Shown piece by piece: positions 7,528 through 23,356 of a stretch of DNA of 64,000 bases. Source of the stretch: Bisporella sp. PMI_857 (lineage: Eukaryota > Ascomycota > Leotiomycetes > Helotiales > Helotiaceae); NCBI GenBank assembly GCA_021307315.1, contig JAJSPD010000052.1:279509-343508 (forward strand), given 5' to 3'. Position 1 is the stretch's first letter, and the number at the start of each line of letters is the position of its first letter. The notes under the pieces are model-generated. The model saw only the letters and a program-made list of their open reading frames with translations, did no database searches and had not been told where the DNA came from. Both the position numbers and the translations under genes were made by a program.

Positions 7528-9975
7528 TTATGAAACAATGAACTGCTGTGTAGGGATGTTATCGCTCTCTTGCTTCTCAACCAAAGCCCCATGCATATAC
7601 TTCTCAACATAACACTCCCCAATAAGTTCGTATTCTATATGCGTATTAGGCTGCCTGCTGAGGTTTCCCCTTCCCCGCAATATAAACGGAACAGAGGCCC
7701 CAAACAGTATTACTATAACATCACCAGGTTTTGTCATTGGCGGGCAGAGCCCAAAAGATCCATCAGAACTCTTGAAAAAGCACTCCCCGTGACATGGAAA
7801 CGAGGACTCAATCCAGGATGCCGTCTCCGTTTCTTGCAGCCAATTGTTATCCCTATTATTGATATCGGGTTCTTTGCCCCAATGTGAGATAAAGTGATCC
7901 ACGCATAGGACCTTCTCCTTATGCCTCGTGTCTTCTGCTTTCTCAAGGTCTTGCATCGTGGGGCCATAATTCCAGGTCCCAGCTACCCCCGCAGGATCGA
8001 AAAGCCACTTGTAAGCCTCCTGGAGCTCCCCGCTTTCTATACTGTAGAAGGGATAGGGATGGATCGATGATACCAGACCAATCTGCAGGCCTGCAAGCTT
8101 TAGCTGTGGGCCTGCCACTCCAGAGGGGTCTAGCTCAGCAAGTCTGTTACCAGATGCCTTATATTTCCCTGACATTCCAAGCGTTCTTTTGGCCCATTTC
8201 CCGTCTCCCTCATGCCATATCGCCCAAGTTGGGTGATTTGGAGGCGGTAGCACTGATCGAGAGGCTGAAGAAGCAATACACCCGCGTTCTTGCCACGCTC
8301 TAGGAGATGAGGCATGAACGGCGGATAGAATCGTAAGAGATTTGTGTTCCATAACCCACCAACGTGTAAAGTCAGCAAAGACATTGCTTGCGGTTTTGGT
8401 GTAGTCTGAGCGGAGGGCCAAAGTGTTAGACCCGCCTGTTTGCATTTCCTTGCACATGCCTAGTAAGGCATATACCTTATCTCTGGCATCTGTCGCATTG
8501 AGGCTGATAGCTTCAAGAATCAATTCCAGAAGTTCTAGAAATGGGACTTCTCCTGCCGAGCCTCGGGCGAAATCCGAGCTTCCTTGATCGACTCTCGTGT
8601 TCCGAATCGCAGCGAGCTGGGTCCAAATCGAGGGCAGAGTATAGAGACGAAATCCTGGAAACCCCCCTCCATGCGGTTCCATCATCCATGCATTTGCTTG
8701 GATCACGCATTCCCAAGGCACTGAGTCCCTTCCACAAGAAACAATCGCCTTTTGGGATTTCCAAACTTCTTGCACCACCCAAACACGACCAAACCATGGA
8801 AAGCTGTATAATCGTGATAAGTCCTCTGCCACACGAAAATACACTTCTCCGAAAACCTTCCCGCCGTATTGCGCCTGCCATGGAAATTCATTTCCAGAGA
8901 CGCCGCGAACTAGTGCCATCGCTCTTTGAGACGAATCGTCGCTATTCCCTAGCCATACATGTGCCAGTTCTGCGAATGCATAGATCTCTCCCATCATGTC
9001 TACTTGATTTCCCCGCTCTTGGAGGTCACTCTGGTTAATGCAGATTAAATCTACCCATAAAGTTCGGCTTTGTTTTTCATATCTCAGATGCTTCAATGCG
9101 TCATAGAGATTGCTTGTTATTGTGAAAGCTTGTGTACGATCAGGTCCCTTAACACGAGAAAAAGCTTCTGCACGTTTATGTATAAGATTGATGCTTCTAG
9201 AGTCGGTCATGTCTCCCCAACAATAGGACAAAGCTTCAAATTTTGGTGGGCTTCCTTTGAGTGATGATTGAATCAGTTCACAGCAGACGGGATCTTCCCA
9301 AGAACCCGGCTGAAGGATCAGCAGCCGGATGTCTTGACTTTCTCTGTCCAGCTTTCCGTAATAGAGATAATCATTCTGGATAGCCCTGAACGTTTGTGCA
9401 TCACCATGCCCAAGAATTGCAAGGGATCGAGAGTCGCCTCCCAAAGAACTCGCACTCTGGACCACTTTGCAATAGATTTCAATGTGAGCAGACTCAATGA
9501 AGTTGACCCAAGCTGGGAATTGAGCCCTCGGGAGCAATTGAATAGTGTCCCTGGCTCGAATTCGTCTCATCCACTGCAGCGAAGCCTCATCAGCGGTGCA
9601 AATATCCCAGGTCACGATATGCTCTTTGAACTCGAAGCTAGCAGTTACGTTACATTGTATCAGCTTATTTGGAATGTGGTCCCGCCCTGCGAGTGTAGAT
9701 ACACCTGCTTCGAACCAGGTGAACGAGCCTTGATACGTCCCTGCAGAATCGGGCTGGCCGCAAAAACCTACAACGGTAAGCCCGGTCTCGTAGAAATATG
9801 AACATGTATCATGGGGCTTAACTAGCCTTGATCATGTGACACGGTTGTGAATTTTATGCGGTGTATCTCTTCTAGGCCTTCTGGAGCCTGGAGCTCGATA
9901 TACGGCCGTGCTGGGCAGTACCTGGAGAACTGGATCGGCTCACCGCAACTGGCGCTGTATACCTGGAGTTGAGAT
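7528..9975 (-). CDS. HET-domain (heterokaryon incompatibility) protein
   Basis: The main exon, 9767-7528, has 746 codons with no stop. HET family motifs are FEALSYCWGD, a helix with LYDALKHLR, then LWVDLICINQSDLQERGNQV and FGRVWVVQEVW. Further down, LELILEAISLNATDARDKVYALLGM is the usual post-HET stretch. HET domains trigger cell death in fungal non-self recognition. No methionine lies at the head of the main exon. A coding stretch upstream (about 9975-9827, containing CPARPYIELQAPEGLEEIH and ending SHDQG) fits the N-terminal domain often seen in this class. It joins in frame to FCGQPDSAG if a 59-nt GC-AG intron (9826-9768) is accepted. The first methionine must lie in a further upstream exon that I could not place, so the 5' end is open. 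Confidence 0.82.
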
Positions 9976-10426: not shown

Positions 10427-12113
10427 CTAGTACACAAATCTCCATCCCTTCTCATTGCCGTCGTGCTCAGCCCAGTTTTCCTGCTCGTCAAGCTTCTTAT
10501 TTAACATTTTTGCCCTCCATTTGACGCCCCAACACAGCAGGACGGTGCACACACATCCAAAAATGATCAGCCCGCCTCCGAGACGATAGAATGGCTCTTG
10601 GCTCCTTGGGAAGAAGTGAGGACTGAACCAATGGCTGCACTGACTGACACAGTTTGCAATAGCGATCAGTGCTGCCTTCTTGCTGCGTGGTGCGGGCACA
10701 AGGTTTGTTTCCCAGGAAAGTTGCAAATTCAGACCGTTGTAAGTACCACTAACTAGGAGAATAACACCGATGTATCGTGCAGCTACGTTGAGAGTAGAGA
10801 TCAGGATTGAGCACCCGACCGCAGAAACAATGATAGGCCCAATTATATGGTAGCAGGACTCGCCAAAGCGACCCGATGAGTAGGCGAAAAGACAGGCAGT
10901 AGCGTAAGCAATAGCGTAAGGTGGAGCTTGAACAAGGTAGGTGGTGAGTTCGTCGAAACCAAATGTCTTGAGGATCTGTGAAAGATATTGGAATTGAGTT
11001 TTGTTATTCCGAAAGGAAAAACTTACGGATGGAAAGAAATCTTTGAACGACTGGGCGTTGATCAAGGAGAAATGCATGCCACAGAATAGCCAGGTGAATG
11101 GATCCTTGACAGCTTCCTTAAGGCCATCCCAGGTACCCCCAACGCCCTCATCTTTACCTCCGCTAGACAGAAGAACACGATACTGAGCCATCTCACTTTC
11201 CTGGGGTGAAAGCCATCTGGTGTTTGTTGGCCAGTTGGGCAAGAGGAAGAATGCAGCGATAGCCATAAGAATGGATGCAGCACCTTCGATCAAGAAAAAC
11301 CATTGCCAAGCATATAGGCCTGCAATTCCTTCCATGTTATGTAAGATCCCAGCAGCGAGGAAGCCAGAAATAATGTTGGAGATGGTGTTACCCGCATGCC
11401 AGATCGCCATACGCATAGGATTCTCCTCTTTGGTGTACCAAGACGACGTCATAAGCGTGATACCGGGGAAGAAAGGTGCTTCCGTGAGACCAATAAAAAA
11501 TCGACAGATACAGAAACCAGCTCCACTACTCCAATGTTAGCTTATAGTTTTATGTGTGATATGAAACGAGGAAGTCTGACTTGGTCATAGCAGGCATGCA
11601 AATTGTCGCTATGCTCCAGGCTAGCATCATACAAGGGAGAAACCAACTAGGGTTCGATTTCGCTAGCCACAAGTTTCCAGGAAGTTGGCCGACGAGGTAA
11701 CCAATATAAAATGTGGAGATACCCGCGTTCCACACGGTATCAGACATATGAAGATCCTTTTGCAGGCCAGCTAATCTGGCATTCGAGACGTTAATACGGT
11801 CCAAGTAACTAAAATCTGTTAGGCTAGTTTCTCATTATATGTGATTAGCAAGAGTTAACACTTGCTTTAGTAAAAACATCAAAGTAATCGTAGGCATCAA
11901 GCGGTAATCCACCTTGCGCAACACCTTCTTGTTGAGAGCGGCCATTTGCTCCGTGTCAAGGCCACGAAGCAATTCAAACCTCCCTTGGATTTCCTGGGGG
12001 GTACAGCCACCATTCTGGTTGGTGGCGCGCTCATACTGCTGGACACTGCCTTTTTGACCGGCCTCGATCTCGCCCTCCTTCTGGCTGTGCATCAATGACT
12101 CGGCGAGGGCCAT
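10427..12113 (-). CDS. MFS anion:cation symporter (ACS family, Dal5/allantoate-permease type)
   Basis: Exons 12113-11860, 11808-11581, 11525-11027 and 10975-10427, with three GT-AG introns of 51-55 nt, give 509 aa, normal for this family. Recognisable features are VLRKVDYRLMPTITLMFLL followed by YLDRINVSNARLAGL (TM1 and its loop), STFYIGYLVGQLPGNL (TM2), FCICRFFIGLTEAPFFPG (TM4 signature) and WFFLIEGAASILMAI. About 12 hydrophobic segments are present, with a hydrophilic N-terminus of roughly 60 residues. ACS-family carriers in fungi move organic anions such as allantoate, nicotinate, biotin precursors and carboxylates across the plasma membrane with protons. The substrate here is unknown. The gene lies in the same orientation as, and just downstream of, a PrpF-family gene and a Zn2Cys6 regulator, which suggests a carboxylate. 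Confidence 0.9.
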
Positions 12114-12979
12114 TTTTATTTTAATGTCTAGTCAGAAAGAAACGCCCCACAGAATCCTTATGTTAAAAAGTTCGTAGATCTCTAAGGTTGAGAGACTAGA
12201 GGATGGTCTGAAGGAAATGAAGATATGATCCAAAGTGCCGTGTGTCATTACTTTATACTTGGGACGCGGCTCATGGTCTGTCGACATCGCATGTCCAAGG
12301 CTTAGAAGCACACCCTAATGCTGAAGCTAACCTAGCACAAGCCATTATCTAGCTTGAAAGCAAGCAGCAGGAGCTTTCAATCGGTCAAGACTGGGGAAAG
12401 GGGGGGTAAATGGCGGGGTTTGGCTTTTTCCAAGTCGAGTGCCAAGTTAGTCTCAGCCTGGATTTAGGATTGGGAAAAAACGAATGAGAATTCGTAGTAA
12501 ACCTAGGTTCCCTGGGCGGTAGGGGTTTGCTTCCGCGGGTTCTTTTCCTTCCGCGGGAACCAAATCGTAATGTAGCGCGATGGAGGTTTAATTAAATAGT
12601 GTATCGCCGTTATGCTCAAGCTGTGTGCGATCACTTCCGACTCTGGTCACATTGTGCTTATCTATTTGGTCAAAAGTCTATAGGTCTCCGGATTCCCTTG
12701 TATTTCCGCGACAACAGTTCGGGAAGCTCATCGCGCTGAGGCGGGTTCTCACAGCTAAAATGGTAACGGCAGTGAATCCTATATTTGTAAACCAAGGCCC
12801 GCATAATTAAGCAATTATCAGATTATCGAATACTCTGTAGCCCAATGTCCTGACTGTGCTTTTATCATAAGAATTTTCACGAGCTTAAGGGGCGCGAACA
12901 CTCCAGTCGCGTATCGTTGATGGTTATGCTGGCGATGATGTTGATATGAATTCTGTTATAATTTATCTGGGTATAGAAT
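12114..12979. other. Intergenic between transporter and PrpF-family gene
   Basis: Promoter region of the MFS gene and 3' flank of the PrpF gene. A GC-rich patch with two CCGCGGG words lies near 12530-12560. No gene seen. Confidence 0.5.
12251..12257 (-). promoter_or_regulatory. Candidate TATA box of the MFS gene
   Basis: TATAAAG on the minus strand, about 138 bp upstream of the start codon at 12113, a plausible distance for a fungal promoter with a short 5' leader. Confidence 0.4.
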
Positions 12980-14395
12980 CTAAACGCTTAACAAAACATT
13001 CCCTTCGAACAGCCGTCTTGCAGTTCTTGACACTGTTACACCCTCCACCACCACTTGTCCATTTGCCTCCTCCCTTAATGTAACATCTGCCTCAATATCT
13101 CCACTCGCATGTTCAATCTTGACTTTCTTCTCCCTTCTGCCCCACCCAATATCCTGCCCTACTAACGTCTGAGGAGGCGTGCTGGGGGGAGTATTGAATA
13201 ATTGTCGCCTGGTGATGTCAGAAGCGATGGTACCTGGTATACTCACAGCGGCACCCAAACAAACCGCTCCCGTGAGCTGGAAACTTGGGTGCGTTTTGCC
13301 CATGCTGTAAGAAGTGACGTGTATATTGGGTTGTTTCTGGCCGCTACTCAAAGTTCCGCTGTGCAAGGTAACAGGCGAAAGGACAGCGATTTTTGGTGTG
13401 CCTCGAACAAGACTAGCAGAAGCTTCGTCACTTGTAAGTCCCATTTTTACCGCTGCTGCACGGCGGATAGCCTCAATGAGTTCGAGGGCTGCGAGATCAT
13501 TACAGTCGAGGGATTGCCATGAAAGGGGCATGGATGCTGAGTCCACGAAGACGAATGGATTGGCAACATCAATCATCGATACGCTGACGGTGAAGGCACC
13601 TAAGGTTGAGGTGATGCTGACTTTTTCTTGTCTCTGGCCGGAAGGGAATAACACATTCGTCATGCTACCGGCGGGGTCTACAAAGGTAACTTTTATCTGG
13701 GAAGCAGTTCCCTTCACTCCTCCAATATAGTAGTCGCCGTCTTCACGGAATCGCCCGTCCGGGCCGACCTTGATTCTTTGGGTTATTTTTTGAGAGGTGT
13801 TGGTGTTAAATATGCTCACATCCATCTGCAAACGATCAGAAAATATCCCTAAATATAGAAGACCAAAGATTGATATACTTACTTCGGTCTGCCCGGGTTT
13901 TGGAATCACTAGCCCTTCATCTAGAGCAAACGGGCCAACGCCTGCGCAAATATTCCCACAGTTGCCAGAGAAGTCCACCTGATTTGACCCGACCCCAATT
14001 TGAACAAAAGTGTATTCAACATCGAACCCAGGCCTCCTCGACTTTGAGATAACCGCAACTTTAGAGGTGGTAGAGGTTGCTCCTCCAACCCCATCAAGTT
14101 GTCTCTGATCTCCATCACGTGAGCCCATTGCCGACAATAATATACTACCCCATTGCGACCTTTCCTTTGGTAGATGTTTTTGGTGTAGGAACAGGCCCTT
14201 CGAGGTCCCCGATCTCATCATGACTGAAGGGAGCACAACGCGGGTTCTTGTTTGTTGCTCCATTGGAACGGTGGTTTGCTGAAAGTTGTAGCAGATGGGG
14301 ACCGAACTTGAGTTGGATGGTGTGTTGTGACAGAGAATGGGAATTGACAGAGAAGGATATACGTGTGATGCAGATCTTATTGTTTTCAGAGACAT
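12980..14395 (-). CDS. PrpF-family isomerase (methylaconitate/aconitate isomerase-like)
   Basis: Exons 14395-13883 and 13825-12980, with one GT-AG intron of 57 nt, give up to 452 aa. The second methionine (MEQQTRTRVVLPSVM) would give about 408 aa, closer to bacterial PrpF. If used, the extra 44 residues could be a targeting peptide. Family signs are VMMRSGTSKGLFL at the N-terminus, SRDGDQRQLDGVGGATSTTSK, and VDFSGNCGNICAGVGPFAL with the conserved cysteine region. Late motifs are FVFVDSASM and GTPKIAVLSP. PrpF folds like diaminopimelate epimerase and moves the C=C double bond of tricarboxylates: 2-methylaconitate in bacteria, 4-oxalomesaconate (GalD), and cis- to trans-aconitate in the Ustilago itaconate cluster (Adi1). 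Neighbouring carrier and regulator genes favour a tricarboxylate role. The exact substrate is inference. Confidence 0.88.
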   Translation of the reverse strand: MSLKTIRSASHVYPSLSIPILCHNTPSNSSSVPICYNFQQTTVPMEQQTRTRVVLPSVMMRSGTSKGLFLHQKHLPKERSQWGSILLSAMGSRDGDQRQLDGVGGATSTTSKVAVISKSRRPGFDVEYTFVQIGVGSNQVDFSGNCGNICAGVGPFALDEGLVIPKPGQTEVSISIFGLLYLGIFSDRLQMDVSIFNTNTSQKITQRIKVGPDGRFREDGDYYIGGVKGTASQIKVTFVDPAGSMTNVLFPSGQRQEKVSITSTLGAFTVSVSMIDVANPFVFVDSASMPLSWQSLDCNDLAALELIEAIRRAAAVKMGLTSDEASASLVRGTPKIAVLSPVTLHSGTLSSGQKQPNIHVTSYSMGKTHPSFQLTGAVCLGAAVSIPGTIASDITRRQLFNTPPSTPPQTLVGQDIGWGRREKKVKIEHASGDIEADVTLREEANGQVVVEGVTVSRTARRLFEGNVLLSV

Positions 14396-14878
14396 GGGAT
14401 CATGATATAAGAGAAACGCCGGTATACTTGAGAGATAAAATGATGGCTATGTACTGAATCGATTGATATTCATTCTAGTTGTATTTAATTTGATGCTTCG
14501 CAAGGGTGACGACAAGGCTATAGCTCAGTAACTACCACAAGCTGTCACAAGTAACCTATGCCATGGAACAACTGCATGGAATATCCCGAGAATAGAACAG
14601 TACTTGTGCAGTGGGGTGGTCTAAGGATTACCTGAGAAGCTGAATTCTTCATAGGGCGATGAAATTGCCGCGGAACCCAACTTCCCGTGGAGTGAAGGTG
14701 GCGAAAAATGCTTAGGGTAGATTTGTTGACACAGGTACTGAAATTGAATTGCCGTTGCATTATAACCTGTAGTAAAATTATACACATGAAATTCCATGAA
14801 TGGCTTCAAATCAGAACGAAACTCTTGGCTATACTTCTTGCGGCCCTTGCCGCTGAGATCGTGATTATGTGTTTGTGT
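14396..14878. other. Intergenic
   Basis: Promoter of the PrpF-family gene and 3' flank of the Zn2Cys6 regulator. No gene seen. Confidence 0.5.
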
Positions 14879-17412
14879 TTAGTTTATACTCTTCCAACCT
14901 ACGAGAATTTGGCAGAATCCAATCAAAGCTCCGTTACTGCCATATGCCATCCGATGCTGCGCTGTTGAATCCTTTGCATAGTTAGTGGCCATGTTCACGC
15001 AATACAGGATTCCAAACTCGCCAAAAAGTGTATCATCAAAAGATTCATCACCAGCCAAATCAAGGGTATTCCAACCTTGCGCAAGCCCAGCGAACTGTTG
15101 CTGGACATTTGGCAGCACACCAGGATGGTACATGCGCGGGAAACTTTGTGGCAGCGTATTGTTTAAATATGGAGCCTGTTGTTCATTGAGGAAGCTGTGG
15201 ATAATAGCATCCATATCGAGGTCAACAACAGAGTCTTGATATGAAGGAACAACATATATAGATCCTGCGTTCTGTGTATCTCTTGAATTCGGTTCCATTG
15301 AAATTTGGTCGCGCCTTTGACCGTTGGGTGGGGCTTCGGCATAAACATTGGTGTCGGGTGTTGGCTCCTTGTCAACCACAAGCTCAATGTTCAATTTTTT
15401 CATCAGATTTAATATAACTGTCTGGGCTCGTCTGGCTGCCTGGTAAATAAAGGAGTCAGTGACCTATTAGCATGTCACAATCCGCTTTTTTGCAAATCTT
15501 CAAAACGAACGGGGCCTGACATGATGCTTAAAGATGTTTCTGTAACATACTGAGTTTGTGTCCTGATTCTTTGCAAATACAGAGCAGCATGTGCGTAGCG
15601 AGTTGTAAGCCTCGGATCCAGGACCAAGCTGTGCAGCTATTCTAACATGTATCGTCGCTGCAACATACGTTGCATAAGCAATAAGGTAAGGTGCATGTCT
15701 AATAGAAAAAGTCTTTTCGTAGTTTCGAAGCAATTGGACAGTTCTAGATGCGGCTTGAGCACACACAGAGAACGAGTTGGATGCAATCGACGGTGATATT
15801 GAATGAAGATGACCTTCTGAAACAAACGGACGGTGGAGGAGAATTAACAAAACATTATACATTGCACTATTGAGGTTAGTATTGGGGTGAAGGTATTGGA
15901 TCAACGATTTTTATCATTAGGGGCATACTGTAAAGATAGGACGTGAGGCGGTGGAACTGTTTTGTTTAACCCAGAAAGGTCAAATGTAAGGTGCTCTGGC
16001 AATGCAGCCTTCCAGCCTTCCAGATCCATTTGCATTCTTTCAAGGTCCTTAGTCAATGTTGTTGGCGCTCGCTTGGAACTCTTTACTCCATAAACGTTGT
16101 TTAGGATTGCGTTCATAATGACACTAAGCTTGCAAAGCTCGGTGAATGTTGAAACACTGTAAGCAGGAGAACCTGGATAGCTAGCGGTATCTGGATATGC
16201 AAAAGGTGTCCAGTGTTCCAACTCCTCATATCGATCTTGAAACAAGATAGGGACCTTGATATCAGCTTCTTGAATGCTAACTGGTCTTCCTTGGTATAAG
16301 GATTGGATCTTGTCCACCACTGGAGATAATTAGCTCAAACTTACATTTCGATTAGGAATTAAAACACACCAAATGCACCCCAAAAGACTCGTCGCCTAAT
16401 TTCCAAATCTTCTTCGCTTACTTTTGCGTTTAGGCCATCGACATGTGCTCCAAGGTCGATCAGCATGCGGAACGCGATTCCAGCATAGATCCAAGCGGCA
16501 CTACGCTCATCCCCAAGAGCGAAGAGAGAATTGGTCATGACCAGCAAAGCTTGTATTGTTACGATCTCACTCCTGTCCAAAGCACCCCCTAGCAATTCAC
16601 GTACCCTCTTCCTGAATCGAGTATGAATTCCCTTAAGTTCTGCTTGAGGAGAAAACTTGCAAGAACCAAAGTAAATTGCATTCAGGAGTAACTTCGAAAA
16701 GTAAGGACCCTGGCAAGCCATATCTCTCATGAACGCTGGTCGGTATGTGATTAGATGTGAGTGGTGTTGACGATTCCAATGCAGGGATAAGAGATGCATT
16801 CCTACTTCAGGATCTACGCCATCAAAATCCAGTCTTCCGGCATTGTAGTTGAGAGTCTCCAGTTGTCCTGAAGTTGTAAGAGGTAAATTTCGAGGATCTT
16901 GAACAATGATAGCTTACGCTGATGCGCTGCCTCGCCCATAAGTTGCCGTCTTGTATACTCGGCTGCTTGATGACTTGTCCTCGGCACTCTGCTATCTGAT
17001 GGCTCGTCATCAAAGAGAGCGCTCGTACGTCCATAGTAGCCTGATTGACTGATTGATCCTATCACTGACGGGCCTGCAGATGCTGGAGTTTGACTTTCCG
17101 GAAGCAATATGGCTCTGTGTTGTGCAAGATTTGTCGTGGTTGAAATGGTAGGAGACGCGGTTCCAGCATTGCCAGCAACTCGGCTAGGGGCAGAGCCTGG
17201 ATGTTCTATACTATCTGAACTAGCTGCTGCATCAGGAGGCGTGTTACCTAGGCGGGCTTGAAGTTGACGATTTTCTTCCTCTAGGCAGGCAAGGCGGTTA
17301 CGTAAGGGCCTGAAGATAGGACATCAACCAATGTTCCTCGGCAGACAATAAACCTATACCCAAAACACAAAAAGTAAAAACATGCTCCAAAGAAAAAGAC
17401 AAAAGAAAAGAA

Positions 17413-17464
<52 letters not shown>

Positions 17465-18070
17465 AAAATGTTGATTTCGCAAGAGTCGATAAATCTGGGG
17501 TGGTATCTATGCGGTGTAAACGCAATACAGTCCGACCTGGATATTTCGGAGCTCCTTATATCGGAAACCTCTATATATCGGAACAAATCTCTGGATCTGC
17601 AAAGCCTTAAGTGGCTATAACAGACCTCTTTACATCGGAAACCTCTATATATCGGAATATAGGCATAGAACCGAGAGTTCCGAAATATCCAGTTCGGACT
17701 GTACAAAATTCTAAAGTAGAGAAGAGCTGTACTTAGGTTTCTTCGGTAACGGAGGATACTGGCAGTTCTTGCTGTAAAGCCTAGAAGTTGTGATGTCAGT
17801 AACTGGCGACTGAAAAAAGCTGGGACACCACGGCTTGGGAGACGATAAGACCCCTTGAGCGGAGTTTATGGAGAATCTGGTGAATCTGGTGAATCGCCCG
17901 CTCACTTGCAGTTTTGACATTGCGGCTGCTCATCACATTTCATCTAACAGCCCTAATTTCAGCTGCTTGCCTCCCATAACCGAAACAATCCAACCAACCT
18001 TCCGTTTGCGACAGAACTCGCAGGCCTTTGTTGCACGCCTCCGTTTTGCTTGTTGAGACTCATCCGCCAT
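14879..18070 (-). CDS. Zn2Cys6 transcription factor with fungal-specific TF domain
   Basis: Eight exons: 18070-17999, 17943-17906, 17780-17733, 17309-16918, 16867-16370, 16319-15929, 15866-15551 and a last exon ending at 14879. The first three exons build the DNA-binding domain ACEFCRKRK-MKCDEQPQCQNCK-LYSKNCQYPP, which matches CX2CX6CX5CX2CX6C when the acceptor at 17781 is used. Next come a basic linker and a coiled-coil dimerisation stretch LACLEEENRQLQARL. The middle-homology (fungal_trans) region includes VGMHLLSLHWNRQHHSHLI, LIDLGAHVDGL and EIRRRVFWGAF. Late helices include NVLLILLHRPF. The last junction is uncertain: an acceptor at 15434 keeps the frame and gives about 769 aa. The frame that reads AARRAQ, more family-like, is two bases out. 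The third intron (17732-17310) carries a MITE and a GAAA microsatellite. The start lies 330 bp from the divergent tricarboxylate carrier gene, suggesting local regulation. Confidence 0.85.
17400..17466. repeat. (GAAA)n microsatellite in an intron
   Basis: About 16 near-perfect GAAA units on the plus strand. On the transcribed strand this is a TTTC polypyrimidine tract about 90 nt upstream of the intron's acceptor at 17310. Confidence 0.9.
17526..17703. mobile_element. 174-bp MITE (Tc1/mariner-type ends) inside a regulator intron
   Basis: The element 17528-17701 is flanked by TA on both sides. Its ends are inverted repeats of about 23 bp with one mismatch: the left begins CAGTCCGACCTGGATATTTC and the right ends with the complement of CAGTCCGAACTGGATATTTC. 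Inside are two near-identical copies of ATCGGAAACCTCTATATATC about 75 bp apart. It has no coding capacity. TA duplication and CAGT-type ends point to mobilisation by a Tc1/mariner (pogo/Fot-like) transposase. It lies wholly within intron 3 of the Zn2Cys6 gene. Confidence 0.85.
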
Positions 18071-18399
18071 GTTTTCAGAGCCGCGGAAACTGCAATTATG
18101 GGTTGCCGGTAGAGAGAAGATAGACACGGATGTGTTGTTGCGCATTGGAGGTTTTCAACGTATGGAAAAAGGAATCTCATTATGTCCGGAACAACCGCAG
18201 AGATAGCCGCGGCAATTCCATTTCCGTGGGAACTCCCTTTCCGTGGACAATCCGCTGTGCCTTAGGCATCCATACCATTACAAGTATGCACGTGATGATT
18301 TTGTGCTGGATATTAATATTCGTTTTAAGAAAAATGAAGCTCCATGTTCTGATGTCTTTTAGTAAATGATTTTAATCCAAAGTCTAGAGATATGAGCCA
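18071..18399. promoter_or_regulatory. Bidirectional promoter region: regulator and tricarboxylate carrier
   Basis: 329 bp between two divergent start codons (18070 minus, 18400 plus). It contains an inverted pair of related words near 18208-18250 (GCGGCAATTCCATTTCCGTGG, then a second TTTCCGTGG), which could serve a dimeric regulator. No strict CGG-N-CCG site was confirmed. Confidence 0.4.
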
Positions 18400-19606
18400 A
18401 TGGTCAGTTCATCATCCCCAATGGTTGCAGGAACAGAGACACCATCGAAAGTTGTAAGGGTATGATATCTCTAGTCCTTATATCAAAAATCCTATCACGG
18501 AAGTGAGGATCCATTTGGTTTTGTTAGATCAAATATATTTTCGAGAAACTATCACCTAATACAAAAGTCTGAAATAAGAAGAAGGTCACTAATAGAACTA
18601 GGGGAACCAACAAATATCCCCTTTTTTATCGCTGGCGGCTGGAGGAATAGCTGGTGGGGTTGAGGCTACCATCACAGTGCGATCAACGTGTTGTTTAAAT
18701 ATAAGAGAAAACTCACAACTGAACAGTATCCGACAGAATACCTGAAAACTAGGTCACAACTCAGATCCGATGGTGTAGCTCAAGGCATCTTTCGCACACT
18801 TCAAACAATCGTAAAAGGAGAGGGACTGGGAGCTCTATATACTGGGTGCTCAACACTGGTTATTGCATGTTCACCTGATTTGCTATCTGATGCGTTTTAG
18901 TTTCCGGCATTGCTGACATATGTATTTAGGGTACAGCTTTTAAAGCAAGCGTAAGGTTTTTGACATTTGATTCAATTAAGGCAGCGCTGGCAGATTCCAA
19001 TGGGAAACTTTCAGCTGGGAATGGAATCTTAGCCGGAATGGCAGCAGGCTGCATTGAGAGTGTTGTGGCTGTGACCCCTACTGAGAGACTGAAAACTGCT
19101 CTGTAACTCACTTGTTGCCTATTACCTCTTTACCTACTTATACAATTTGCAGTATTGATGACACAAAGAAGGCAAAACGGTTCCACAGTAGCACGCACGC
19201 TATAAAAATGATCATCCAGGAGCAAGGTTTCAGAGGATTATACAAGGGACTGGCCTCAACAACAATGAAACAGTCAGCAACCTCTGGTGTGAGAATGGGC
19301 TCTTACAACTTCCTGAAAGAGATCGCCAAATCAGGACAGCTTCCCCAGAACTCAGCAATGACTTTTAGCATGGGCGCTGTTGCAGGCACAATCACTGTGT
19401 ACGCAACGCAACCATTCGACACAATTAAGACAAGAACTCAGAGCGCAAAAGGAGCGAAGACTATAGACGCTTTAAGAAGTATTATACAGGAGTATGGCGT
19501 TCAAGGATTTTGGAAAGGGAGCACTATGAGGCTATTGCGGCTTGTGGTTTCTGGAGGTATTGTTTTTAGTGTTTATGAGCAAATTATATTGCTTGTTAAA
19601 AGATAG
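18400..19606 (+). CDS. Mitochondrial tricarboxylate (citrate) carrier, CTP1 type
   Basis: Exons 18400-18453, 18602-18676, 18727-18864, 18930-19102 and 19153-19606 give 297 aa, the usual length of CTP1 carriers. All three mitochondrial-carrier signatures are present: PTEYLKTRSQLRSDG, PTERLKTAL and PFDTIKTRTQSAKG. Each is followed by a typical matrix-helix stretch (GALYTGCSTLVI, GFRGLYKGLASTTMKQ, GFWKGSTMRLLRLV). The N-terminus SPFLSLAAGGIAGGVEATIT is the usual carrier start. The carrier exchanges citrate or isocitrate for another tricarboxylate, malate or phosphoenolpyruvate across the inner membrane. Intron 3 (18865-18929) has a GC rather than GT donor, followed by ATGT. The reading frame requires it. 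The first exon is short, and its 148-nt intron is the least certain. Divergent from the Zn2Cys6 gene. Confidence 0.86.
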
Positions 19607-20330: not shown

Positions 20331-22522
20331 GCGGAATCGAAGTCAAAATGACGGCGTTAGCTTATTATCTCTAGGAGACTTGAATCTCGGACGAGTTCGA
20401 GAAGCTGTCAAAACTGTGAAGCAGAGGCGCAAGGTCGCCTAAATATAAGCTTATGCTACATTTGCCTTTGACTTGGCCTGTCACTAAGCTTGGCTTCGGA
20501 CGAACTTTCCTCCATATCTTATGTTTACAATTTCAGCTAGAAAATCTGTCACTGTCATACGATTAGCTCTTTAATTATCGATATTTAATATCAAAAATAC
20601 TAGCTATAGCAGAGAGATTTGTATGTCAGGTAACAGGATGTCACACGTCAAGGGACAATAAGGGGGTTCGGTAGAAGCTCTAGGTTTTGGCACGTAAGGG
20701 CCGCCAGAGGTTTGGAGGCATAAGTAGAAGGCTCAGGACGTAGTAGGAAGGGTAGAAGTTAGTCTTTGTATCAATGAGAGCTGATTTGTGCCACACTACT
20801 CCAGCGCCTTATATTGTAGCACTTAAAAACATTGTGATAATTCTTGTTATTGAAGTAAAATTGAAGTTGACAACACTCTGACTTGTCTTAGTTTGTCCAG
20901 ATCGATTTTTGGTGGAACTACTCCAGGACAAAAGTGATATAGTGCGGAGCAGCTTTGAGATAAAAGAAAATCAGATCGATTCTGTTTACTACAGTTAAAA
21001 CTCAAAAAGTCGGTTACATAAACAAGGCTGACAGTTTGAGCCTTTGCCGCAGTGATCGTGTTACCAAGCTTAAGTAGTGTTATAACGCCAGCGAAAATAG
21101 TCAGAAAGGCAAAGCCAATATTAAGGTACGCTACAACAAATACACTTTTCGCAACATTTTTTACACTAACAAAGTCGGTGTAAGGAAATAATGGCTAAGC
21201 TAAGGATCGAAGCTAACGTGCAATGACAGACTTATACAACTTTCAGATATTGGTTAACTAAAAGGTATTTTTTTACTTACTATGTTGTAGCAGACCATGA
21301 GCATTATCATTATGCAGTAAAGTAACAGAAGGGGTGATGTAAATGCAACTAGAATACATCATTGGTGTTATTGTTGTTCTTTTCATTTTGTGAAAATGTT
21401 TCAAATAAAATGCCATTTACTGATTGCGGTACCAAGATCAATTAAACCGGAGACCTGACCTATGATCAGGGAAGCGAAACTTAGGTGTGTTGTCAGCTAT
21501 CCTCGCTTAGCCGTTGACGGAACGGATGGCCAATCAGATTGCGATCTATAAATAAACGATATTTACAAACGATTCGCTATCAATTCATCAACAATACGGC
21601 CATGAAAAAAAGCTTGGAAGATGCTGGGAATAGATATGGTTGTTACTGTCACCAGCTTTGTATAGCTTTCATCTCCTCATTTGACTGTAGTCAGCTGAGA
21701 CCGGACAGAACAAGACAGGCTGTGCAATGGCCTATTGCTGCTTCATGGCATGTTATACGAGATCTTCATTTAAGCCCAATGGATTGGGTCAGGACTTGTA
21801 AAGCATCAACCATTCTAAGCCTTGCGGTTCACGTAGTTTTATGTCTTGAGGCTATATTGGTGCATTTTTATGTTATACAACCTCTCAGCATTTGTACGTA
21901 TTGTCAAGGCCCTTTTAAGATTTGATTGTGTTATATTTTAGGTATTTTGTATGTCGGACGAGTTGCTGTATAGTGGTCTGGGATATTGACGAGTTTCTTG
22001 AATTGTGTTGAGAGGGGATATATAATATATCCCGTATATCATTAGCGCAATAATATTCTGAGCACTACTAACACTTCTATAACTGTACAACCTCCTATCG
22101 ACGCGACGTTGCGTCTTGCTGTACACAAGAACCTACTTCCATAACATTACAAAGAGTCTGGAATAAATTATAGTTAAGGTTATAGGCTGCTGAGTGTTAC
22201 GTACATTACAATGATGGAATTTTGCCTGTGCTCGGATGACTGTATGTTCTGGACCCTCAGACGCGAGAGGCTGAGTTCTTCAAGATAATGCCTACATCAA
22301 AGATGTGATCTTTCAGGGGTTACTCGCTAACCACAAGAGTCATTTTGAGATACAAGGATAGCTGCCGCTGGTCAGCCGGCGGAAATTCCAAGTATAAAGA
22401 GGATGCTATGTTTTCTCTCTGGATACTTCATTTTATAACTCAAACTCATTCTTATAACTCTCACCAAACCTCATTACATTTTGTTTCAAGTACTCATAGT
22501 AATTATTCGCTGCTCTTTCAAA
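20331..22522. other. Long intergenic stretch, nothing recognised
   Basis: About 2.2 kb of mostly AT-rich sequence. Open frames here (for example near 21.5-21.9 kb) have no family character, and no RNA gene was recognised. The last 130 bp is the promoter of the GH16 gene. Confidence 0.5.
22393..22399 (+). promoter_or_regulatory. Candidate TATA box of the GH16 gene
   Basis: TATAAAG about 124 bp upstream of the ATG at 22523. Confidence 0.45.
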
Positions 22523-23356
22523 ATGCATCCTATCATTAAAATATCTTTCCTGGCTCTGTTCACCACAACCATGGCAGAAATTCCCAACAAGGGCGGGCAT
22601 AGAGTAATCTGGTCCGACGATTTTAACGGACCTAGTGGAAAGGTTGACACAAGTCAATGGAACTACGAAACGCAACCCGGGGGAAATAGCAACAATGAAA
22701 TTCAAGTATACCAGGAGTCGGCACAGTACGCTGGTCAAAATGGCGAAGGCTCTCTCTATATATCAGTGCGAAAATCGATGGCCGGGAATTGGTTTTCCGC
22801 CCGCATCGCCACTTGGCCAACATTTACTTGCGCCAAGGGCCACAAAATGACGATCGAAGCCGAGATCAAGCTTGGTGATGCTCCTGCAGATAGACAGCAA
22901 GGTATATGGCCTGCCTTCTGGGCCCTCGGTAGCGCCATTTATAAGGGGACGCCTTGGCCAGGCTGCGGCGAATGGGACATTATGGAGGTTAAGAATGGAG
23001 AGGATCGTAGCCTTGCAAGCCTTCATTATGGGGCTGATAAAGGCAGCAAGGACGGGATCACCTTCGATCGCTCACAGTTCCATAAATGGTCCATTGAGAT
23101 TGATCGCACATCAGATAACTGGCAAGAACAGGCAATCAACTGGTATCTGGACGGAAACAGGTACCAAACTGTTACTGGGTCAGATGTTGGAAATTTTGAC
23201 AGCTGGGTTACCCTTGCGCACTCACCCTATTACGTCCTCTTGAATATTGCTGTTGGGGGTGATTATCCTGGTATGCCAAATGATAACACAAAATCCGGAG
23301 GGGACGTTGGGATGTTGGTGAATTATGTTGCTGTTTATGGGACTGATGGTGCCTAA
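22523..23356 (+). CDS. Secreted GH16 family beta-glucanase
   Basis: A single exon of 277 aa. The start is MHPIIKISFLALFTTTMA, a short signal peptide. The mature protein has the GH16 beta-jelly-roll order: VIWSDDFNGPSGKVDTSQWN, GGNSNNEIQVY, the substrate strand GIWPAFWALG, and the catalytic motif GEWDIMEV with the expected E-x-D-x-x-E residues (E150, D152, E155). Later come LASLHYG, INWYLDGNRY and YVLLNIAVGGDYPG. This is the laminarinase-like (endo-1,3(4)-beta-glucanase) subgroup, acting on cell-wall or plant beta-glucans outside the cell. The absence of introns and of a GPI-type tail fits a soluble enzyme. All catalytic residues are intact. Confidence 0.9.
   Translation: MHPIIKISFLALFTTTMAEIPNKGGHRVIWSDDFNGPSGKVDTSQWNYETQPGGNSNNEIQVYQESAQYAGQNGEGSLYISVRKSMAGNWFSARIATWPTFTCAKGHKMTIEAEIKLGDAPADRQQGIWPAFWALGSAIYKGTPWPGCGEWDIMEVKNGEDRSLASLHYGADKGSKDGITFDRSQFHKWSIEIDRTSDNWQEQAINWYLDGNRYQTVTGSDVGNFDSWVTLAHSPYYVLLNIAVGGDYPGMPNDNTKSGGDVGMLVNYVAVYGTDGA

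Follow-up and report, generated by a model that had tools for sequence, protein, structure and literature searches.

Trans-aconitate is an acid found in plants, and a group of four adjacent genes in the ascomycete Bisporella sp. PMI_857 raises the question of which acid such genes handle and in which direction it flows. The genes lie in a stretch of 64,000 nucleotides, hereafter the window (C233:279509-343508 of the 55.6-Mb assembly), and encode an MFS organic-anion transporter, a PrpF-family isomerase, a Zn2Cys6 regulator and a CTP-type mitochondrial tricarboxylate carrier. A preliminary description of the locus had likened it to the itaconate cluster of Ustilago, and had allowed that it might make, export, import or break down trans-aconitate or a related acid. 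The tricarboxylate or aconitate theme of that description holds up. The most likely function of the cluster is to serve an unsaturated tricarboxylate, likeliest trans-aconitate and likeliest inward. We favour, at somewhat better than even confidence, a co-regulated cluster for trans-aconitate assimilation, whose substrate and direction we infer.

All four genes are intact: the models were rebuilt with introns and their translations contain no internal stops. Along the forward coordinates the MFS, PrpF and regulator genes follow each other in that order on the minus strand, while the carrier lies on the plus strand, read divergently from the regulator out of a common promoter of 350 bp. The positions given in the preliminary description stand, apart from the MFS start, now set at 12113, and the orientation of the carrier, which is divergent from the other three genes. 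The MFS gene (10427..12113, minus strand; exons 12113-11866, 11808-11581, 11525-11027 and 10975-10427) has three introns, the first of them GC-AG in the rebuilt model, and encodes a protein of 507 amino acids nearest to the ACS (2.A.1.14) group. The PrpF gene (12980..14395, minus strand; exons 14395-13883 and 13825-12980) has a single intron, and its product has 452 amino acids if translation begins at the upstream ATG and 408 if it begins at 14263, the ATG of the public model. The regulator (14879..18070, minus strand; 778 amino acids, seven introns) combines a Zn2Cys6 cluster with a Fungal_trans domain and is spread over eight exons (18070-17999, 17943-17906, 17771-17733, 17309-16918, 16867-16370, 16319-15929, 15866-15521 and 15439-14879). 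The carrier (18421..19606, plus strand; exons 18421-18459, 18602-18676, 18727-18864, 18930-19102 and 19153-19606) encodes 292 amino acids and has four introns, of which the third is GC-AG in the rebuilt model. Public models from the same fungus depart slightly from the rebuilt lengths (MFS 502, PrpF 408 and carrier 299 amino acids), and all three are recorded with a longest contig of 343,508 bp. Pfam scores agree with the identities first proposed for the four neighbours: 121.9 bits for MFS_1, 310.9 bits for PrpF (PF04303, cut-off 27), 196.8 bits for Mito_carr and 86.6 bits for Fungal_trans, with Zn_clus barely over its cut-off (21.7 bits against 21). In the rebuilt model the zinc cluster reads C-x2-C-x6-C-x5-C-x2-C-x3-C; because its sixth cysteine lies nearer than usual, the neighbouring intron might be placed otherwise. 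The carrier shows three Mito_carr repeat stretches in Pfam and keeps the charged Lys/Arg residues of the citrate site, which we take to be formed as in yeast Ctp1.

The isomerase keeps the catalytic residues of its family. Its closest relatives in the PDB are Mii (179.5 bits), then PrpF, YbhH and LigU. The lysine and cysteine to which catalytic roles are ascribed in Shewanella PrpF (K73 and C107; PMC5690661) have counterparts in K68 and C102 (numbering of P0001), and neither position varies in the 22 fungal proteins aligned, drawn from 120 listed matches; the K73E variant 5k87 differs in the alignment at just the lysine column. Shewanella PrpF interconverts cis- and trans-aconitate (PMC5690661), as does Adi1 of Ustilago (PMC4720413); Adi1 does not figure among the 120 matches listed for the window PrpF. 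A structure model of the 408-residue form (mean predicted local distance difference test score of 86) points to the two-domain PrpF fold: ranks 1 to 16 of its 50 listed PDB matches are chains of PrpF, Mii, LigU or YbhH, and the trans-aconitate-bound structure 2pw0 is among the best of them. The neighbourhoods of bacterial relatives were scanned as well. At six loci from Bacillota, Treponema and Synergistaceae, the open reading frames (ORFs) scanned gave LysR in 5 of 5 and a citrate-type (CitMHS/MatC) transporter in 4 of 4 cases, and at one of the six an aconitase lies beside the PrpF relative; this company counts in favour of assimilation.

Linkage in other fungi was assessed by searching PrpF, carrier and MFS proteins each against a large protein collection and comparing the best 120 matches of each. 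Genes were taken to share a contig when the size of the longest contig was equal across lists, and genes called not linked are mostly ones whose linkage is not visible among the matches listed. On this basis 33 contigs (that of Bisporella included) are common to lists, seven of them three-way; pairwise, PrpF and carrier share 18, carrier and MFS 17, and PrpF and MFS 12. Random placement in a 40-Mb genome would give 2.25 shared contigs, 0.94 of which stem from one 37-Mb sequence. Linkage is clearest on short contigs, of 4,689 bp (carrier and MFS), 9,234 bp (PrpF and carrier) and 36,413 bp (Colletotrichum musicola, PrpF and carrier). By eye, 23 named species are present in both the PrpF and the carrier matches listed, and 18 of them, Bisporella included, have the two genes linked: in 17 they share a contig, and in Pyricularia grisea the locus tags are two apart. 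Four more (P. sporulosa, A. turcosus, Exserohilum turcicum and C. incanum) are not comparable, being represented by different assemblies or merged clusters; the last of the 23 is taken up below. Also by eye among the matches listed, two or three of the genes bear tags one to three apart in eight species: Aspergillus nanangensis (FE257_004618/4619/4621), Pyricularia grisea (MCOR25_007935/7936/7938), P. angulare (N7478_000518/520), Paraphaeosphaeria minitans (PMIN02_006727/730), Exophiala bonariae (LTR84_010941/942), Verticillium albo-atrum (ACHAQA_000748/749), Paraphaeosphaeria sporulosa (DPSP01_008587/588, carrier and MFS) and Clonostachys chloroleuca (V2G26_004116/117). In Didymella heteroderae PrpF and MFS share a contig, yet lie 33 tags apart. 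We take the linked species to represent Leotio-, Eurotio-, Sordario- and Dothideomycetes. In a tree of 43 of the 120 listed fungal PrpF matches and 19 bacterial sequences, the fungal proteins form one group apart from the bacterial ones, and the linked ones are spread through several subgroups, not one clade, with 12 changes on the tree. The group of PrpF, carrier and MFS genes is no chance neighbourhood.

The promoters of the cluster (12114-12979, 14396-14878 and 18071-18420; 1,699 bp in total) are crowded with the word CCGYGG, which was noticed by eye and counted afterwards. They hold 8 of the window's 27 sites, where the remainder of the window would predict 0.52. As a check, the 6-, 7- and 8-mers found in all three promoters were ranked free of any motif, and CCGCGG, CCGCGGA and CCGCGGAA headed them. 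All but one of the eight sites follow each other at steps of 17 or 18 bp: upstream of the MFS gene two CCGCGG sites spaced by 18 bp (12533..12556), upstream of PrpF a CCGCGG and a CCGTGG spaced by 17 bp (14668..14690), and in the promoter of regulator and carrier (18081..18246) the sites at 18207, 18224 and 18241, again in 17-bp steps, besides which that promoter has a further site at 18081. Genome-wide, pairs at this spacing show no excess (14 and 14 matches against 18 and 36 for reversed-pattern controls), although 3 and 2 of these matches, at four places, fall in the cluster's 1.7 kb; the crowding at the cluster is thus unusual, while pairs as such are not. The longer word TTCCGYGGGAAC occurs five times in the 55.6-Mb genome, twice within the cluster promoters. 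The other three sites lie inside long reading frames with no visible relation, and no wider regulon was found through this word. Words of the CCG/CGG type are usual targets of Zn2Cys6 proteins, and the cluster's own regulator is therefore the likely binder of these sites. The shared promoter sites suggest that the cluster genes are probably co-regulated.

Taken together, these features would fit the following route. The MFS protein, probably by symport with protons, would carry trans-aconitate or a closely related tricarboxylate through the plasma membrane into the cell, and PrpF would move the double bond to give cis-aconitate. The CTP-type carrier would bring the acid into the mitochondrial matrix, either as cis-aconitate made in the cytosol or as trans-aconitate isomerised inside, and aconitase would then draw cis-aconitate into the tricarboxylic acid cycle. 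Sensing of the acid would probably fall to the Zn2Cys6 protein, which would activate the four genes by way of the CCGYGG sites.

Where the isomerase would act is suggested by its N-terminus. A start at the in-frame ATG at 14395, which is preceded by a stop in the same frame, would lengthen PrpF by 44 residues, none of them acidic. Leaders were surveyed in the 118 of 120 listed fungal relatives that have a recognisable start motif, with a crude presequence rule (net charge of 2 or more, no more than one acidic residue, helical moment of 0.40 or more) that was fixed only after leaders had been looked at. The window leader, with a net charge of +2, no acids and a helical moment of 0.36, narrowly fails the rule. 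Leaders of at least 45 residues occur in 23 relatives, one of which, P0081, was set aside as odd; of the other 22, 9 pass. The linked Rhynchosporium PrpF and the PrpF on the 9,234-bp contig are among the relatives that pass. For comparison, the rule was passed by 2 of the 35 leaders with 25-44 residues, by 3 of the 440 internal pieces, by 3 of the 120 carrier N-termini and by none of the 120 MFS N-termini. Read by eye, several leaders contain stretches resembling presequence ends, such as QRAGLAT, QRSFLST and SRNLATA. These presequence-like leaders in some relatives make the mitochondrial matrix a possible site of isomerisation, in which case the carrier would import trans-aconitate itself. 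Adi1 of Ustilago is described as cytosolic (PMC4720413).

The carrier does not stand alone in this genome. The notion that it might be the only carrier of the citrate type is rejected, since CTP-like loci occur on no fewer than five further contigs, C49 (54%), C213 (51%), C207 (44%), C218 (40%) and C22 (35%), besides more distant carriers; the one on C207 reads as Ctp1-like by its motifs. Three of these loci keep catabolic-looking company. At C49:29001-49000 the 54% identical carrier stands beside a tricarballylate dehydrogenase of the TcuA type (497.9 bits, cut-off 369), an enzyme whose product is cis-aconitate; the one other ORF scanned there gave no Pfam match. At C218:393001-413000 Pfam places an aconitase, an RraA-like protein, a CTP-like carrier and an amidohydrolase together, and the locus has the look of a catabolic pathway for aromatics or tricarboxylates; ACS MFS-like and regulator-like ORFs were seen there by eye. 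The C22 carrier adjoins an amidohydrolase gene (Pfam). Among the paired CCGYGG sites listed, none lies on C49, C218 or C22. That several loci pair a tricarboxylate carrier with catabolic-looking genes favours inward flow in the window cluster too. Mitochondrial carriers are induced during aromatic catabolism in Candida parapsilosis (PMC5144973). Two further PrpF loci were considered as sharing the job of the window gene and were rejected: the C56 protein belongs to another subfamily, placed in the tree among bacterial sequences on a long branch, and a copy on C219 (C219:1174650-1175307) looks degraded and resembles the C56 gene more than the window's.

Fungal use of the acid is on record. Aspergillus niger brought the trans-aconitic acid of distillery waste down from 5.71 to 1.59 g/L within 10 days, taking it up mostly after the sugars were gone (PMC5771024), and it holds a PrpF of the same clade as the window protein (P0077 in the PrpF tree). 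Several points weigh against assimilation all the same. The uptake by A. niger is not tied to its PrpF gene, and a review is contradictory on this species, describing it both as lacking mttA and as apparently having orthologs (PMC6447509). By homology the substrate of PrpF is not fixed, since neither NCBIfam cut-off is reached: oxalomesaconate tautomerase (274 bits, cut-off 440) comes ahead of PrpF (227 bits, cut-off 440.6). The MFS protein scores 196 bits with its best NCBIfam model, 2A0114 (ACS), below the cut-off of 395, so that its earlier assignment to the ACS family stands as nearest group and not as membership; its PDB matches, a D-galactonate transporter and sialin, are weak (at most 33 bits), and the direction we would give it is taken from family habit. 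Six alphaproteobacterial PrpF loci gave no citrate transporter among the 10 neighbour ORFs scanned, which include one PEP-mutase/isocitrate-lyase-like and one MmgE/PrpD gene. Aspergillus floccosus, the sole exception among the 23 species, carries PrpF and carrier on separate contigs, and the C49 carrier has an internal stop as read, which weakens the argument from the tricarballylate locus. Finally, the equilibrium of Adi1 lies at 88% trans (PMC4720413), so the isomerase alone favours the opposite direction.

This equilibrium speaks for a production cluster, in which cis-aconitate would pass out of the mitochondrion through the carrier, or be isomerised in the matrix beforehand, PrpF would turn it into trans-aconitate, and the MFS protein would export the product as a toxin or antifeedant, as in the tbr system of Bacillus thuringiensis or the first half of the Ustilago route. 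Ustilago runs the reverse reaction with the same kinds of protein (PMC4720413), and bacterial TbrA and TbrB make and export trans-aconitate (PMC11495376). We nevertheless regard production as unlikely. A yield of 60 g/L in A. terreus came through a bacterial tbrA gene. The fungal ACS group, to which the MFS protein is nearest, holds importers such as Dal5 and Tna1. Itp1 of Ustilago, by contrast, is EmrD-like (PMC4720413), and A. niger consumes trans-aconitic acid (PMC5771024). Slightly less probable still is assimilation of another unsaturated acid, such as oxalomesaconate from gallate or protocatechuate, methylitaconate or dimethylmaleate, or 2-methylaconitate. Such substrates are known within the PrpF family, oxalomesaconate tautomerase is NCBIfam's top model, and the further carrier clusters of the genome, with their amidohydrolase, RraA-type and aconitase genes, resemble such pathways. 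However, no ring-cleavage, aldolase, hydratase or CoA gene was seen on reading the ORFs of at least 100 amino acids at 8-23 kb, of which the two flanking genes were scanned with Pfam; a tricarboxylate carrier has no obvious use for such products, and propionate use is covered by a standard prpD gene on C219.

The absence of a decarboxylase of the Tad1 or CadA type, remarked on in the preliminary description, is borne out on the scale of the contig. Genome searches for their families, Lyase_1 (Tad1) and MmgE/PrpD (CadA), give lower bounds: MmgE/PrpD genes were found on at least two contigs (C219 and C236) and Lyase_1 genes on C35, C112 and C250, with neither found on the window contig C233. Judged from its sequence, the cluster is not an itaconate cluster, as it has no decarboxylase-family gene on its contig, a Zn2Cys6 instead of a helix-loop-helix regulator and an MFS protein of another group. 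The likeness to Ustilago thus survives in the roles of the genes and fails for decarboxylase, regulator class and MFS group. An itaconate cluster served by a distant decarboxylase is very improbable. One candidate, the CMLE-family lyase at C250:147897-149409, has Ustilago Tad1 as its second-best PDB match (280.6 bits, over 233 and 216 for CMLE) and is flanked, by eye, by regulator and MFS ORFs, but it is far closer to bacterial fumarate lyase (372.8 bits); a short ORF there resembling an MFS start by eye gave no Pfam match. The other, the MmgE/PrpD protein on C236, has IRG1/cis-aconitate decarboxylases as best PDB matches, but weak ones (65 bits). Both genes are unlinked to the cluster, and no paired CCGYGG sites were found on C250 or C236. 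At C236:270501-280500 this gene lies near an UNC-93-like transporter (Pfam), and Zn2Cys6 regulator ORFs were seen by eye.

A few further features of the region deserve mention. Intron 3 of the regulator holds a miniature inverted-repeat transposable element (MITE) of 178 bp with 29-bp terminal inverted repeats and TA ends (17526..17703), adjoined by a GAAA run. In the genome 42 long matches were listed, itself included and some overlapping, after 40 of 136 candidates had been scored; the best other copy is 96% identical. The idea that the regulator is broken was rejected, as the stop-rich stretch of 423 bp after the zinc cluster is best read as an intron enlarged by the MITE and the GAAA run. 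A HET-domain (heterokaryon incompatibility) gene adjoins the cluster (window 7528-9615, minus strand), and a glycosyl hydrolase family 16-like gene flanks it on the other side (22481-23356, plus strand).

The conserved four-gene cluster offers direct targets for knock-out, and if the assimilation reading is true, it would be worth deleting as a drain, or turning round as a usable part, in strains producing itaconate or trans-aconitate. It is also a possible origin of itaconate-cluster carriers. A 2019 review left the origin of MttA open, with best relatives scattered among other fungal classes (PMC6447509); the carrier group linked to PrpF could be a candidate source of the MttA and Mtt1 carriers. 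A far broader proposition, to which we give little credence, joins eukaryotic trans-aconitate assimilation across filamentous ascomycetes, with an isomerase in the matrix and a carrier importing trans-aconitate, to an old catabolic module as the stock of both the itaconate carriers MttA and Mtt1 and the Ustilago isomerase; itaconate clusters would then have arisen by gain of a decarboxylase and reversed flow. Among the open-licence papers listed by literature searches, none was seen on a fungal gene set for trans-aconitate use.

Several known systems frame this reading. The Ustilago maydis itaconate cluster likewise groups a PrpF-family isomerase, a CTP-like mitochondrial carrier, an MFS protein and a regulator, but it has Tad1, its regulator Ria1 is a helix-loop-helix protein and its transporter Itp1 is EmrD-like (PMC4720413), whereas no Tad1-family gene was found on the window contig, the regulator is Zn2Cys6 and the MFS is nearest the ACS (2A0114) group. 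Homologs of Cyp3 and Rdo1 were not seen on reading the window, no search having been aimed at them. The itaconate cluster of Aspergillus terreus is alike by role in its Zn2Cys6 regulator, mitochondrial tricarboxylate carrier and MFS protein, and has cadA where the window cluster holds prpF (PMC6447509). The structures of Mii (3g7k), LigU (6p3j) and PrpF (2pvz/2pw0) share the fold and the catalytic Lys and Cys with 30-33% identity to the window protein over structural alignments, and serve other pathways. The tar system of Bacillus velezensis, TarA/TarB/TarR, imports trans-aconitate and combines a PrpF-superfamily isomerase, for which conversion of trans- to cis-aconitate is proposed, with an MFS transporter and an adjacent regulator (PMC11495376). 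It differs in being bacterial, in its LysR-type instead of Zn2Cys6 regulator and in lacking a mitochondrial carrier (PMC11495376), and TarB and the window MFS are likened by role alone. On the best reading, the roles of the four genes would fit this tar system better than the Ustilago itaconate cluster, and the Bisporella locus would be its fungal counterpart with a mitochondrial carrier added.

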